42,893 nt of DNA from Myxococcota bacterium (GTDB lineage: Bacteria > Myxococcota_A > Bradymonadia > UBA7976 > UBA1532): assembly GCA_963169045.1 (NCBI GenBank), contig CAUJDF010000101.1, forward strand, positions 1-42,893, read 5' to 3'. Below are positions 4,426-42,893 of this stretch, one piece after another (position 1 is the stretch's first letter; the number at the start of each line of letters is the position of its first letter). Under the pieces are notes generated by a model. It ran no database searches, had not been told where the DNA came from, and worked only from the letters and a program-made list of their open reading frames with translations. Both the position numbers and the translations under genes were made by a program.

Positions 4426-4452
4426 CTTCGGGAACGGAGCAGAGGAGCGGGC

Positions 4453-5607
4453 ATGCGCATCTGGCGCGGGCTGATCTTGGCGTGTCTCGTCGCCGCGTGT
4501 GACGGCGGCACGGGGGCGGGCGGCGGCGGCGGAAGCACTGGAGGCGCGGGCGGTGGCGGCGGCGAATCTCCCGACGGCGCGGTGAACGTGCCCGACGGCG
4601 GGCGCCCCGACGGCGCGCCTGGGCCCGACGCCGGCCCCGGCCCGGACGCGGCCCTCCCCGACATGGACGCCGGCCCGACGCCCGCCGACGGCGCGGTCGC
4701 GCAGCCCGACGCCGCCGTCGCCTCCGACGTCGACGAGGACGGCATCCTCGACGCCGACGACAACTGCCCGGACCGCTACAACCCCGAGCAGTCCGACGCG
4801 GACGGCGACGGCGTCGGCGACGCGTGCCAGCCCCTCGGGGCCGACGCCGGCCCGCCCCCGGGCGACGGCGCCCCGCCGCCGCCACCCACGGACGCCGACG
4901 AGGACGGCATCCTCGACGCCGCCGACAACTGCCCGGACCGCTACAACCCCGGTCAGGCCGACACCGACGGCGACGGCGCGGGCGACGCCTGCGACCCCTC
5001 GATGCCGCCCGACGGCGGGCCACCGCCCCTCGACAGCGACGGCGACGGCACCGCCGACGACACCGACAACTGCTACGACCTGCCGAACCCCGACCAGAAC
5101 GACGGCGACGGGGACGGCCTGGGCGACGCCTGCGACAACTGCGCCGCCATCGACAACCCCATCCAGTCGGACATCGACGGCGACGGCGTGGGCAACGAGT
5201 GCGACGTCTGCCCCGAGGACGCCGACCCTCTCCAGGACGACGCCGACGGCGACGGCGCGGGCGACGTGTGCGACCCCGACTCCGGGCCCGACGCGGGCAT
5301 GCCCGTCGACAACGACGCCGACGGCGTGCTCGATGGACAGGACAACTGCCCGCTCACGTTCAACCCCGGCCAGGCCGACATGGACGGCGACGGCATCGGC
5401 GACGCCTGCGAGGGCGGCGACGTGGGCGGCCCCGACGGCGACGGCGACGGCCGGCCCGACATGACCGACAACTGCCGCTTCATCCCGAACCCCGACCAGG
5501 CCAACCGCGACGGCGACCTGCTCGGCGACGCCTGCGATCCCTGCCCCGACATGCCGGACATCCCCGGCGTCCCCTGCGCCGTCGTGAACGGCGCCGGCCC
5601 GCCCTGA
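4453..5607 (+). CDS. thrombospondin type-3 repeat lipoprotein, calcium binding
   Basis: A 384-residue lipoprotein. The signal sequence ends in a lipobox (LVAAC, Cys at about residue 16), then a Gly/Asp/Pro-rich linker of roughly 80 residues. From about residue 95 to the end there are about seven TSP type-3 repeats of the form DxDxDGxxDxxDNCPxxxNPxQxDxDGDGxGDxCD. In this family the Asp side chains bind calcium and the Cys pairs form disulfides. An AGAGGAG ribosome-binding site precedes the ATG. The gene follows the fibre protein closely, so the two may be co-transcribed surface components. Lipidation suggests anchoring to the outer membrane. The high Asp content gives low-complexity GAC/GGC-rich DNA, which opens long meaningless frames on both strands. 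Confidence 0.85.
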
Positions 5608-5774: not shown

Positions 5775-6194
5775 GCGTCGTCCCGTCGCGCCAGGCGTGG
5801 CGCGACCGTCGGGGAGCAGGGCGAGGCGGTCCTGAGCGACGGCGGGCCGGGCCACGGTGCGGCACAAGCGCTCGAGGGTGTCGGGGTCGCCGGCGGGCAC
5901 ACGCGTGGCCGCGTGGCGCGTGAAGCCGTCGAGCGAGACCGAGAGCGGCTCGTCGAGCGCCGGCCTCACGAAGCCGTCGCCCTGGCGGACGAGGGGGCCG
6001 CCGGGCTCGGGGCCGAGGAGCTGGCGCTGGCCGAGCGACGCGTCGGCGCACGCGTCGAGGGCGGTGGCGTCGACGACGCTCGGCTCGCCCTTCTCGAAGA
6101 GGCGCCGGACGGACCGCACCCCTCGGGCGAGGAGGTCGGCGAGCCCGGCACGGCCCAGATCGGCCGTCGCGCCGGCGACCAGCCCGACCACCCC
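5775..6194 (-). pseudogene. decayed IS91-type (Y2) transposase C-terminal fragment
   Basis: The 638 bp between the TSP3 gene and the next gene contain no intact gene. The minus-strand translation from 6194 to 5802 reads like the C-terminal part of IS91/IS801-type transposases. It has GQRQLLGPEPGG, then a DGFTRHAATRVPAGD-like stretch, then RLCRTVARPAVAQDRLALLPDGR, matching the family pattern LDGFxLHAxVRVPAxDRxxLERLCRYxARPPLAxxRLxLLPDGR. The family then continues with a xxxxWRDGTTHL motif. Here that motif (HAWRDGTTRL) appears in a different frame, so a frameshift sits near 5800. The N-terminal catalytic half is absent and the family's end region cannot be followed below about 5775. It is a relic of a mobile element. 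Nothing else is seen in 5608-5774 or 6195-6245. Confidence 0.65.
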
Positions 6195-37911: not shown

Positions 37912-39063
37912 ATGAACACACCGAACAGATTCCGCACCGCCGCGCTGGCCGTCTTCGCGTCGCTGTGCCTGGCGTGGGTGGCGCCCGCGCGCGCCGCCGA
38001 TCCCGCGCCGAAGAAGGCCGCGCCGACCGCCGGGCGCGCCGTCGACGTCGTGCTGACGGCGGTCGACCCGAAGCGCCGCGGCGAGGTCGAGGCCGCGCTG
38101 CTGCGCGCCGGGCTGACCGCGGCGCATGCGAAGGAGGCGGCGGCGAAGCCGCCGGCCGTGGTGAGGCGCGCCGTGACCGTGTTCGAGGCCGCGGCGCTCG
38201 AGAAGAAGCTCACCGCCGCCGGCGCCACGATCGAGGTGCGGGCGGCCACCGCGCCGGGCGAGCCGCGACGCCTGCCCGCGGCGGCGGTCCGCGAGGCGCG
38301 CTATGAGGTGGTGCTCGTCGCCGCCGGCAACGCGAAGATCGAGGTCATCAAGCTCGTCCGCGAGGTGCTCGGCCTGGGCCTGAAGGACGCCAAGGACCTC
38401 GTCGAGAATCCGCCGCAGCCCGTCGGACGGAACCTCGACCTCGCCGGGGCCCAGGCGCTCGAGCGGCGGTTCGTGGCGGCCGGCGCCGCGGTGGAGATGC
38501 GCCAGACGGCCGGCCCGCCGCCGGCGCCCCCCTCCGCGCCACCGGCGCCCCCCTCCGCGCCGCCGGCCGACGCGCGCTTCGACGTGGTGCTCGTCAGGAC
38601 GGGCGACCGGAAGATCGAGGTCATCAGGCAACTGCGCGACCTGCTCGGCCTCGGCCTCCGACAGGCGAAGGACATCGCCGACAACCCGCCGCAGACCTTG
38701 CGCACCGGCGTCGACCTCGAGAGCGCGCAGACGCTCCAGCGACAGCTGACCGAGGTCGGCGCCGTGGTCGAGGTGCGCCGGGACGGCGTCGCGGTCGCGC
38801 CCGAGACCGCGCCGCCGGCCCCGCCGCCGCCGCCGTCGGCGCCGCCCGACGACGGCCACTTCGACGTCTGGCTGATGAGCGCCGGCCCCTACCACATCAA
38901 CGTGGTGAAGGCCATCCGCGAGACCACCGGCCTCGGGCTGACCGAAGCGAAGAACCTCGCCGACGCCGCCCCGACGCTCATCCGCGAGGCGGTGTCCCGC
39001 GATCACGCCGAGAGCATGGCGTCGCGCCTGCGCGATGCGGGCGCCACCGTCGAGATCCGGTAG
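37912..39063 (+). CDS. exported protein of tandem ribosomal L7/L12 C-terminal-like domains
   Basis: A 383-residue protein with a clear signal peptide (ALAVFASLCLAWVAPARAAD). After it come four copies of a domain resembling the C-terminal domain of ribosomal protein L7/L12. Copy 1 (about 42-108) is degenerate. Copy 2 starts at 130 (KIEVIKLVREVLGLGLKDAK, then DLVENPP), copy 3 at about 222 (KIEVIRQLRDLLGLGLRQAK), copy 4 at about 316 (INVVKAIRETTGLGLTEAKN). Each keeps the GLGLxxAKxLxxxxP helix-turn and ends with the AGAxVExR strand. The true L7/L12 N-terminal dimerisation domain is absent. Copies are joined by Pro-Ala linkers (PPAPPSAPPAPPSAPP). It is therefore not ribosomal but an envelope protein re-using the fold. 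A good AGGAG site precedes the ATG. Partner unknown. Confidence 0.85.
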   Translation: MNTPNRFRTAALAVFASLCLAWVAPARAADPAPKKAAPTAGRAVDVVLTAVDPKRRGEVEAALLRAGLTAAHAKEAAAKPPAVVRRAVTVFEAAALEKKLTAAGATIEVRAATAPGEPRRLPAAAVREARYEVVLVAAGNAKIEVIKLVREVLGLGLKDAKDLVENPPQPVGRNLDLAGAQALERRFVAAGAAVEMRQTAGPPPAPPSAPPAPPSAPPADARFDVVLVRTGDRKIEVIRQLRDLLGLGLRQAKDIADNPPQTLRTGVDLESAQTLQRQLTEVGAVVEVRRDGVAVAPETAPPAPPPPPSAPPDDGHFDVWLMSAGPYHINVVKAIRETTGLGLTEAKNLADAAPTLIREAVSRDHAESMASRLRDAGATVEIR

Positions 39064-39118
39064 CGGCGCCGGTTCGGCGTGCGACGTCGGGCCGCCCGCG
39101 CATGCACGAGCGGCCGGC

Positions 39119-39455
39119 GAGTCGAGCCGGCGGCGGCAGCACTTCGCAGCGAAATCGGTGGAGTCGAACCGGACGCGTCGCCGAAAGCGCCGGCGCACCG
39201 GCGAGTCGAACCGGCGCCGGCAGCGTCTCGCCGCGCCGCCCGCCGAGTCGGACCGGCGACGGCGTCGTTCCGGAGCGCCGTGGCTCGAGTCGAGCCGGCG
39301 ACGCCTCCGTTTCGTCGCGCGGCCGGCCGAGTCGAGCCGGCCGGCGCTCGCGAGCTGCCCAGCGCGCCGGCGAGTCGGCCGTCGCGCGGCTGCGTTCGGG
39401 AGCGGCGTCCGGCGAGTCGGCCGTGACGCGCTCCGCCGTCCTCGAAATCTCGTGC
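39119..39455. repeat. eight-unit 42-bp array of GAGTCG-centred dyads
   Basis: GAGTCG recurs at 39119, 39161, 39203, 39245, 39287, 39329, 39372 and 39414, spaced 42 bp except for one step of 43. The best conserved box is GAGTCGARCCGGCG; the remaining 28 bp of each unit vary. In most units the box sits in a small inverted repeat whose arms differ: GCCGGC/GCCGGC (unit 1), CGGT/ACCG (2), CCGG/CCGG (3), GGC/GCC extended through TCGA/TCGA (5), GGCCGGC/GCCGGCC (6), CGGC/GCCG (7, 8). Unit 4 is weak. The period equals four turns of B-DNA, placing all dyads on one face. The array lies in a 558-bp gap with no supported gene, upstream of a sigma-54 promoter. Since 42 is divisible by three, all frames stay open, but none has a credible start or end. 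Confidence 0.8.
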
Positions 39456-39458
39456 ACT

Positions 39459-39497
39459 GCATCGAAACGACGATGCGTTTCCTCGTCGATTCGAGGA
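39459..39497. other. two consecutive perfect hairpins after the array
   Basis: GCATCG (39459-39464) pairs with CGATGC (39471-39476) across a six-base loop, followed by GTTT. TCCTCG (39480-39485) then pairs with CGAGGA (39492-39497), again over six bases. They may end a transcript coming from the left, or belong to the regulatory array. No long U-tract follows either. Confidence 0.4.
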
Positions 39498-39549: not shown

Positions 39550-39565
39550 TGGCACGCCGGCTGCT
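39550..39565 (+). promoter_or_regulatory. sigma-54 promoter upstream of unknown gene
   Basis: TGGCAC (39550-39555), GCCGG spacer, CTGCT (39561-39565) matches the sigma-54 consensus TGGCAC-N5-TTGCA/T, with a perfect -24 element and the essential GC of the -12 element. Predicted start of transcription is near 39577, leaving about 45 bases before the ATG at 39622. A sigma-54 activator (RtcR) is encoded about 1.2 kb away, and the dyad array is 95-430 bp upstream, the normal range for activator sites. Confidence 0.65.
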
Positions 39566-39621
39566 CTTACGTCTCCTCGCAACAACGACGGGCCGATGGC
39601 CCCACAGCGAGGAGAGAGTCG

Positions 39622-40485
39622 ATGGCGAAGCCCAACTCCATTGGTGGTCTGGATCGCGGACAGTCGGTGTCCTTCGGCAAGCACCTGACCGGCGAAGCGC
39701 GCGAGACGTGTCTGCGAAGCGCCACGGGCAAGATCTACGTGCGGCTGATCGAGGTCGCGCTGGCCCAGGTCGCGGCGGGCTGGGGCGCCCCCAAGGACGA
39801 AGACGGTGCGGCCGCCGCCGAGCGGGCGGTGCTCCACACCGAGCAGGGGCGGGCGCTCAAGGCCGCCCTGAAGGCCGTCAGCGTCGATCCCGGTTTCGAG
39901 CCGCCGGTCCGGGCGGCGGCGGCGCGCGTGGCCGCGGCCGTGGGCGTCGTGCCGGGCGTTCGGGCGCGGACGCAGGACCGCGCCGCGAACGCCGAGGTCG
40001 TGCAGGCCAACCTGCGCGGCCTCGGGCAGGAGCTGGCGTCGCTGCCGCCGACGATCCGCGGCGCGACGTTCGCCGCCGAGCTGGCCGCCTGGTGCAGGCT
40101 CGGCTTCGCCTTCAAGGAGGTCGTGCTCGCCGATGCGCGGCGCAACGAGACGATGAAGGGCGGTCGCGAGGTCGGCATCGCGGTCATGACGCTGAACGGC
40201 CTGTTCTCGCGCTTCCGCGCCTCCCTCGCCGACGAGCTCGCGGCCGACGAGACGCTGCCGCGCGACCTGCAGAAGGAGCTGTTCCGCCTCTACGACTCCT
40301 ACGTCGAGGCGCGCCGCGCGAAGCACACCGCCCGGAACGCGCGCAAGGCCGCCGCCGAGCGGAAGGCGGCCGAGAAGAAGGCCCCGACCGGGCCGCCCGC
40401 CGCCGAGCCGCCCGCCGCGGGGCAGCCCGCCGCCGAGCCGCCCGCCGCCGAGCCGCCCGGCACGCCGGCCCCCGCCGAGACCTGA
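39622..40485 (+). CDS. unrecognised protein with charged helix and Pro-Ala tail
   Basis: A 287-residue cytoplasmic protein (no signal or membrane segment) that I do not recognise. GAGGAGAG before the ATG is a strong ribosome-binding site. Residues 1-225 look globular and mostly helical (HLTGEARETCLRSATGKIYVRLIEVALAQVAAG; RGATFAAELAAWCRLGFAFKEVVLADARRNE). Residues about 225-255 are a basic helix (VEARRAKHTARNARKAAAERKAAEKK). The end is a low-complexity tail of PPAAEPPA/AGQPAAEPP units. A basic region next to a disordered tail could bind nucleic acid, but that is speculation. It stands behind a sigma-54 promoter and the 42-bp array, and is convergent with RtcR, so it is the natural candidate target of that activator. 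Confidence 0.65.
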   Translation: MAKPNSIGGLDRGQSVSFGKHLTGEARETCLRSATGKIYVRLIEVALAQVAAGWGAPKDEDGAAAAERAVLHTEQGRALKAALKAVSVDPGFEPPVRAAAARVAAAVGVVPGVRARTQDRAANAEVVQANLRGLGQELASLPPTIRGATFAAELAAWCRLGFAFKEVVLADARRNETMKGGREVGIAVMTLNGLFSRFRASLADELAADETLPRDLQKELFRLYDSYVEARRAKHTARNARKAAAERKAAEKKAPTGPPAAEPPAAGQPAAEPPAAEPPGTPAPAET

Positions 40486-40565: not shown

Positions 40566-40587
40566 GGGGCACCCCACGACCCACCGC

Positions 40588-40728
40588 GTGCTGCGCGACG
40601 GCATCCTCGTCGTCGACCGCGACCCGAGCCGGCGCATCGAGTTCGAGGTGCGGCGCCGCAACGAGTACTTCGACCTGCTGCCCGTGCTGCGCGAGTACCG
40701 CCGCGCGGCGGGCGGGCGCAGCCCGTGA
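40588..40728 (+). CDS. small conserved-looking ORF, start uncertain
   Basis: The frame ending at the TGA at 40726-40728 reads RVLRDGILVVDRDPSRRIEF, then EVRRRNEYFDLLPVLREYRR and a short basic tail. It has no low complexity and its codon use is like the neighbours, so it looks coding. The only standard start is the GTG at 40588 (46 residues), which lacks a ribosome-binding site. Four codons upstream, ACG at 40576 (ACG ACC CAC CGC) is spaced ten bases from GGAGGGGGG and could be a mutated ATG. It lies between the sigma-54-linked gene and RtcR. Function unknown; the gene may be inactive or weakly translated. Confidence 0.45.
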   Translation: MLRDGILVVDRDPSRRIEFEVRRRNEYFDLLPVLREYRRAAGGRSP

Positions 40729-40762: not shown

Positions 40763-42355
<1,593 letters not shown>

Positions 42356-42399: not shown

Positions 42400-42647
42400 G
42401 CGGCGCGTCCCGCCAGGGGGACGCGGCTTGCCGGCGTGCCCGCCTCCGGGCTCAGTGCGCCCTGTTGCGGCGCCGCCGCTCGGCGCCGGAACCGACGACG
42501 AATCCAGCACGTCATTCCCGAGCCCGAGCCCATCTCCTGCGGCAGCATCTCCCAAGGGATGCCGCTGCGCAGGACGCAGATGATCCCGGAGAGCACCTTG
42601 CGGTCGTCGAGCGGCGGCCTGTCAGTTGCGCTGGAGACGAACGACCA
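42400..42647 (-). pseudogene. IS5-type transposase remnant with internal deletion
   Basis: The minus-strand translation from 42647 reads DRPPLDDRKVLSGIICVLRS, then GIPWEMLPQEMGSGSGMTCW, to 42504. This matches the N-terminal domain of IS5-family transposases (RPPLDDRxVLxGILFVLRTGIPWEDLPQELGxGSGMTCW). The next family segment appears at once in another frame: LDSSSVPAPSGGAATGRTEP (42507-42448) continuing to about 42400, corresponding to the family's VDSxxVPAPxGGxxTGPNPTDRGKPG. The roughly 35-45 residues normally between them, and the whole catalytic C-terminus, are missing. It is a degraded relic in the 538 bp upstream of rtcR. No terminal inverted repeats were recognised. Confidence 0.7.
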
Positions 42648-42666
42648 CGGTGCATTCCGGCGTAGG

Positions 42667-42712
42667 CGTGGACCTGGACGTGTACGTGGACGTGAACCTG
42701 GACGGTGACGCG
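42667..42712 (+). repeat. degenerate GTGGAC/GTGTAC-type hexamer tract
   Basis: A short tract of imperfect six-base units (GTGGAC, CTGGAC, GTGTAC, GTGGAC, GTGAAC, CTGGAC, then GGTGAC). It translates as Val-Asp/Val-Asn dipeptides on one strand and His-Val on the other. It lies between the transposase relic and the truncated four-helix gene and is probably non-coding. Confidence 0.6.
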
Positions 42713-42763
42713 CCACGCGCCACGCGCACGAATTCTGCGACAAGCCGCCGCGCTGTCCGAGGG

Positions 42764-42886
42764 ATGGAGTGCAGCGCCATCGTCGACAGCTGCGCCCTCC
42801 TTGGCGCCATGAGCGCGCACGACGCGACGAAGGCGGAAGAGCTGTCGGAACGCATCGTCGCCATGCGGACCAGGATGTGCCGCTGA
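42764..42886 (+). pseudogene. C-terminal fragment of a four-helix-bundle (S23/IVP) protein
   Basis: The last 40 codons before the TGA at 42884-42886 read SCALLGAMSAHDATKAEELS, then ERIVAMRTRMCR. This resembles the final helix of the four-helix-bundle proteins related to those encoded in 23S rRNA intervening sequences (family ending LLxRIVAMLTRMxR, normally about 110-130 residues). The upstream 46 codons of the same frame are the hexamer tract and unrelated sequence, so the first three helices are missing. No good ribosome-binding site precedes the ATG at 42764. It lies beside transposase wreckage, so it is probably a truncated gene. Low certainty because the fragment is short. Confidence 0.45.
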
Positions 42887-42893
42887 CCGGCCG

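Follow-up and report, generated by a model that had tools for sequence, protein, structure and literature searches.

A putative RtcR-type regulon for an unnamed helical protein family associated with 42-43-bp tandem arrays in Myxococcota

Results

The P gene and its promoter

We analysed the 42,893-nt contig C101, hereafter called the window, which belongs to a 9.0-Mb draft genome from the phylum Myxococcota. At 39622-40485 on the + strand lies a gene for a predicted all-helical protein of 287 aa whose Pro/Ala tail, beginning near residue 255, is disordered; we use the name P for this protein and for the unnamed Myxococcota family to which it belongs. Upstream of the start codon, the + strand carries a ribosome-binding site (AGGAGAGAG, 39610-39618), a small hairpin in the 5′ leader (GGGCC-GAT-GGCCC, 39590-39602) that has a similar form at the paralogues on contigs C70 and C4, and, separated from the gene by 56 bp, a predicted sigma-54 (−24/−12) promoter (TGGCACGCCGGCTGCT, 39550-39565). 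The initial annotation had described a near-consensus sigma-54 promoter and a strong ribosome-binding site ahead of a gene without a recognisable family, and these points were borne out: the promoter is an exact pattern match, the ribosome-binding site can be read from the sequence, and the ORF has no family in Pfam, NCBIfam, PHROGs or PADLOC. Searches with the same four collections over 57 P-family members returned isolated single-member matches only.

The promoter is the sole exact match to TGGCACN5YTGCW in the window, for which 0.03 were expected; with one mismatch allowed, 1 match was found versus 1.57 expected. The putative site by itself would be modest evidence. Its weight is increased by the finding that, of the five closest family members in this genome, three (the window copy and those on C70 and C4) share a site with zero or one mismatch together with an alignable promoter and leader. 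The genome also encodes RpoN.

Further features of the window lie on both sides of this gene. A gene at 37912-39063 (+), immediately 5′ of the 42-bp array described below, encodes a protein that is predicted to be exported and in which four stretches match the C-terminal domain of ribosomal L7/L12 (PF00542). Between P and rtcR, a short open stretch at 40577-40728 (+; RVLRDGILVVDRDPSRRIEFEVRRRNEYFDLLPVLREYRR) is, by appearance, the end of a nucleotidyltransferase gene and probably a remnant. At 42559-42893, a transposase-like remnant is accompanied by a dispersed repeat, which recurs on C70 of the same genome (L129, about 4430-4620), where it precedes an ORF of the S23/four-helix-bundle type.

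The RtcR-type neighbour and other RtcR genes

An RtcR-type sigma-54 activator paralogue is encoded at 40763-42355 on the − strand and is thus tail-to-tail with P, in agreement with the convergent arrangement noted initially. Its product has a CARF-type sensor, an AAA+ domain with GAFTGA and a C-terminal helix-turn-helix (HTH) region, and it matches PF06956 (E = 6e-33) and Sigma54_activat (PF00158, E = 3e-43). Because the best NCBIfam match, RtcR (NF038308), reached 516.5 bits and not the equivalog cut-off of 650, we regard this regulator as a diverged paralogue and not as an equivalog. GAFTGA, the P-loop and the C-terminal HTH region all align with those of the canonical RtcR copy on C79.

On C79, the canonical RtcR is divergent from a TROVE/Rsr-like gene, rtcB and rtcA, which lie behind their own sigma-54 site; rtcB was assigned by Pfam, and TROVE and rtcA were assigned by sequence inspection. 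The window itself contains none of rtcB, rtcA, rsr or Y RNA as an adjacent target, as had been pointed out before, and we found no rtcB, Rfam RNA or tRNA in it. The related suggestion that a new effector had taken the place of the RNA-repair enzymes did not hold up: because the canonical rsr-rtcB-rtcA operon is present elsewhere in the genome with its own RtcR, the P gene is an addition and not a replacement.

Searches of the same genome identified P paralogues on C70 (41% identity), C4, C11 and C56, and more distant ones on C11, C35, C67 and elsewhere. Three RtcR-like genes, on C101, C4 and C56, are each tail-to-tail with a P-family gene, and the P genes on C70 and C11 have no adjoining RtcR. 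Co-occurrence with rtcR in related genomes, which the initial annotation had put forward as a check, was not observed; the pairing was seen in this genome only, and the other P loci examined have no adjoining RtcR. On C56, the RtcR-like protein has neither GAFTGA nor the C-terminal HTH region, and the P gene has no recognisable sigma-54 site, so that the losses in the regulator and at P are internally consistent.

RtcR-like genes were also encountered in other settings. L024 of the same genome (C48:100752-101425) carries a frameshift and is truncated at the end of the contig. At L104, L105, L109, L110, L111 and L114, divergent RtcR paralogues lie opposite an RtcB-like gene that is mostly followed by a PrfH-like gene, with a sigma-54-like site between the divergent genes at L104 and L105. 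Divergent RtcR-like activators of other Myxococcota (L107:4295-7074 and L115:1726-4578) stand beside a small gene that is of the von Willebrand A (TerY-like) type by appearance and that is preceded at L107 by a sigma-54-like site (6038-6053).

Conserved promoters and exclusive predicted operators

A pattern search upstream of the P promoter identified the two dyads of a predicted activator (UAS) site, neither assigned to a strand: dyad 1 (CATCG-AAACGA-CGATG, 39460-39475) and dyad 2 (CCTCG-TCGATT-CGAGG, 39481-39496), which are 16 bp each, 21 bp apart and 53 bp ahead of the −24 element. The double dyad has two exact matches in the 9.0-Mb genome, both upstream of sigma-54 promoters of P-family genes (C101 and C70), no place with 1 mismatch and 13 places with 2; the reversed pattern occurs in 8 places. 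Instead of the double dyad, the P promoters on C4 and C11 carry a 15-bp element, KTTCGATAMRAMCGG, whose three exact matches in the genome are these two promoters and the canonical rsr-rtcB-rtcA promoter, versus 0 for the reversed control. Both operator patterns were derived from the very sites found, and their weight lies in their exclusiveness and position. The C-terminal HTH regions of the C4 and C79 regulators are alike and that of the C101 regulator is distinct, which is consistent with its different operator.

The P genes on C101, C70 and C4 have a sigma-54 site with zero or one mismatch 56-61 bp before the ATG, and the C11 paralogue has a decayed site at the same alignment position. The non-coding promoter and leader are conserved among these copies, including the decayed one on C11, yet the encoded proteins share about 30-42% identity, which points to selection.

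Distribution and predicted fold of the P family

The P family is widespread and multi-copy in Myxococcota: a profile search of 379 sampled genomes of the phylum found it in 26, several of which had at least 6 copies among the matches scored. AlphaFold2 on 57 sequences (mean pLDDT 88) gave helices throughout, one of them 59 residues long, with a disordered tail. The predicted fold is all-helical and without a clear known match. Foldseek with P returned no hit with E under 0.001 against the PDB or against a viral library, and the best VIA-align Z was 10.3 over 108 residues, to plant inhibitor four-helix bundles, with a guideline of about 13 for helical bundles. In the PDB, the sequence profile gave only designed or weak helical matches. 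Nop, TROVE and Avd-type proteins did not stand out in the fold comparisons, a result that excludes none of them. Profile and structure searches of the 287-residue protein, as proposed in the initial annotation, left the family without a known name and gave no clear fold match.

The basic helix and the Pro-Ala tail, which had been taken for effector traits, proved not to be a family hallmark: the tail varies, the core of the family is mildly acidic, and the basic stretch at 233-256 of the window P is not general in the family. We propose that P may be a helical scaffold- or adaptor-like protein that represents a new Myxococcota family.

Tandem arrays at P loci

Ahead of the operator in the window, autocorrelation identified a tandem array, about 8 units long and with 42 bp per unit (43 bp in one), with the core CCGGCGAGTCGA.CCGG at about 39085-39445, with approximate edges and no assigned strand. 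Neither this array nor the double dyad had been noted initially. The best lag among 28-59 was 42 (z 7.7), and the unit spacings are 42, 42, 42, 42, 42, 43 and 42. Arrays on C4 and C70 occupy the same position ahead of the operator, and their unit sequences are unrelated.

For P loci chosen by protein similarity only, an adjacent intergenic 42-43-bp array was present at 37 of 65 (z > 4), and the best autocorrelation lag (28-59) was 42 or 43 in 45 tested flanks. Among control genes, such an array flanked 14 of 580 (2.4%) in the same genome and 12 of 268 (4.5%) in the Polyangium-type genome G340, counts that rest on 778 kb and 400 kb of these genomes, respectively; the same test on genes at RtcR loci of other genomes gave 0 of 101. 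A binomial test with a 5% background, which ignores relatedness, yielded about 4e-31. In the P tree, arrays occur in deeply separated clades and on both flanks of the gene, and the labels change 16 times or more. The arrays lie up- or downstream of P and comprise few to about ten units; in 37 arrays, which together have 227 units, the spacing was 42 or 43 bp in 185 of 190 cases and 44 in the remainder. Unit sequences are locus-specific, yet recognisably alike between orthologous loci. Of two scans of genome contigs, one led to four loci (Polyangium and Byssovorax) and the other gave no match. We consider it about as likely as not that P and the arrays are functionally linked.

Arrays of 42-43 bp are not exclusive to P and were also found beside other genes and beside a second helical family. 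In G340, arrays away from P lie at L256:4467-4724, L259:10603-10966 and L266:5018-5311, which suggests a wider class of such arrays. The second family, which is unnamed and comprises proteins of ~200-235 aa without Pfam matches (L129:5417-6025, that is C70:215417-216022; L274; L263:3344-4051), has an array with a 43- or 86-bp period directly 5′ in several copies; we rejected it as a P homologue at an hhalign probability of 0.4%. The array was also rejected as an RtcR binding site, as P loci that lack RtcR or sigma-54 sites have arrays too and the canonical C79 promoter has none.

Dyads occur in a number of unit consensuses, and certain arrays have fold energies far below those of shuffled sequence. 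An RNA hairpin array was not supported by covariation, which within arrays amounted to 803 paired cells versus 799 in shuffles. Fold energies gave no overall preference for a transcribed strand, and Rfam gave no match to the arrays at gathering score. A weak common GGTCGR-type core of the units scored above column-permuted controls. With covariation in the arrays no higher than in shuffles, no overall strand preference and a mildly acidic family core, there is no support for nucleic-acid binding by P.

Discussion

P and the array could constitute an RNP-type system in which unit transcripts of ~43 nt would form hairpins held or used by P, a system comparable to Rsr-Y RNA or to solo TasA/TIGR and RtcR-controlled in this lineage. 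The fixed unit length, the locus-specific sequence, the small non-enzymatic protein next to it, the strong dyads of certain arrays that fold well below shuffles and the TROVE/Rsr-like gene in the canonical RtcR operon of this genome are consistent with such a system. We consider it doubtful, however, with no covariation within arrays, no overall strand preference, no Rfam family, no Nop or TROVE domain by Pfam, an acidic family core and a unit consensus that has no variable-spacer pattern. P or a partner might otherwise bind the array DNA at phased sites about four helical turns apart, with a role in autoregulation, condensation or centromere-like assembly, and the unit length of 42-43 bp, close to four turns of B-DNA, the dyad symmetry in several unit consensuses and the GGTCGR-type core above its column-permuted controls would fit; this is nevertheless unlikely in view of the acidic family core, the finding of no known DNA-binding fold, the location of arrays on either gene side and the lack of a preference for other multiples of the helical repeat (e.g., 53). 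It is likewise improbable that the arrays are lineage-specific functionless intergenic repeats and that only RtcR control of P is meaningful. Arrays away from P, notably in G340, and units that vary without covariation would agree with that explanation, but the arrays are enriched over ten-fold compared with equally tested control genes, in several families across the phylum, and their unit sequence is recognisably common to orthologous loci.

Because the pairing is repeated, the promoter and leader are conserved, the predicted operators are exclusive and C56 shows joint decay, P is likely to be under RtcR-type control. The initial annotation had proposed an RtcR-controlled locus with a new effector, and the repeated tail-to-tail pairing, conserved promoters and shared operator elements agree with that proposal. 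Its caveat that control followed from proximity only stands in part: control is still something that we infer, but pairing, promoter conservation and operators now add support. That another activator uses the sigma-54 site and the RtcR neighbour is coincidental is very unlikely, for although matches to the sigma-54 consensus are, on their own, only somewhat rarer than chance and RtcR does not adjoin the P genes on C70 and C11, the tail-to-tail pairing recurs, an operator element is shared with the canonical RtcR operon, and regulator and promoter decayed jointly on C56.

With P under RtcR-type control, the diverged RtcR paralogue (40763-42355) would bind the two dyads, which are two helical turns apart (39460-39496); bacterial enhancer-binding proteins bind dyad sites. 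Its CARF-type domain may be triggered by an RNA-derived or related ligand, by analogy with known RtcR, which is triggered by RNA ends from damaged tRNA (PMC7790460). The triggered paralogue would then drive sigma-54 RNA polymerase at 39550-39565, leading to the production of P, and the sister P gene on C70 is probably another target of the window activator. P could then work together with its array or with RNA transcribed from it, or else serve this response as a scaffold. In this scheme, the steps that we infer are the binding to the dyads, the signal that induces P, and any interaction of P with its array. We lean towards the view that the locus is a small RtcR-type regulon making P, which would work with the array or its transcript, and the regulatory half of this model is stronger than the P-array half.

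As in the known RtcR - rsr/Y RNA - rtcBA operon of Salmonella and E. coli (PMC7790460, PMC9650030), a CARF/AAA+ RtcR-type activator adjoins a sigma-54 promoter at the P locus, and a 15-bp element is common to two paralogous P promoters and the canonical promoter of the same genome. In contrast to that operon, the target here is neither a ligase or cyclase nor Rsr but an unnamed helical protein; the regulator has diverged, and the target gene is convergent with it. The regulatory part is a variant of the known RtcR system. At the RtcB/PrfH-like loci of other Myxococcota (L105, L109, L111 and L114), an RtcR-like paralogue has also been recruited to different targets, but these are RNA-repair and release-factor genes (named by eye), and RtcR is divergent from the operon.

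TIGR-Tas arrays consist of alternating 8-12-nt repeats and two variable spacers of ~9 nt, from which a tigRNA of 36 nt is processed (PMC12045711). P loci resemble TIGR-Tas and solo TasA in combining a small non-nuclease protein with an adjoining short-unit array whose units are conserved within and different between loci and are palindromic in some clades (PMC12045711). They differ from TIGR-Tas in that the P-array units are 42-44 bp long and have no two-spacer pattern or guide-like variability. Pfam Nop gave no match in 57 P-family members at E 0.01, and the fold comparison had no clear match to any protein. TROVE was absent from the P family by Pfam, and Rfam gave no Y RNA match at gathering score. 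A repeat array adjoins a protein gene in CRISPR as well, but the P-array units are arranged in direct head-to-tail tandem without unique spacers, and no cas relatives were found among P-family members.

A literature search on myxobacterial 43-bp arrays found nothing relevant, and as far as the sources searched go, the P family and its association with arrays are undescribed. With somewhat less than even confidence, we suggest that P and the 42-43-bp arrays may form a new two-part Myxococcota system that is distinct from CRISPR and TIGR and that, in one lineage, would have come under an RtcR-type RNA-damage regulator with its own operator. RtcR is known mainly as an RNA-repair switch. RtcR paralogues that are each associated with a gene of an uncharacterised family and with matching operators would mean that this switch has been reused, which makes the logic from signal to effector testable. 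The P locus may stand for a new type of locus involved in stress or in the handling of RNA/DNA, and the P family, with its arrays of constant length and variable sequence, is common enough for comparative and experimental work.
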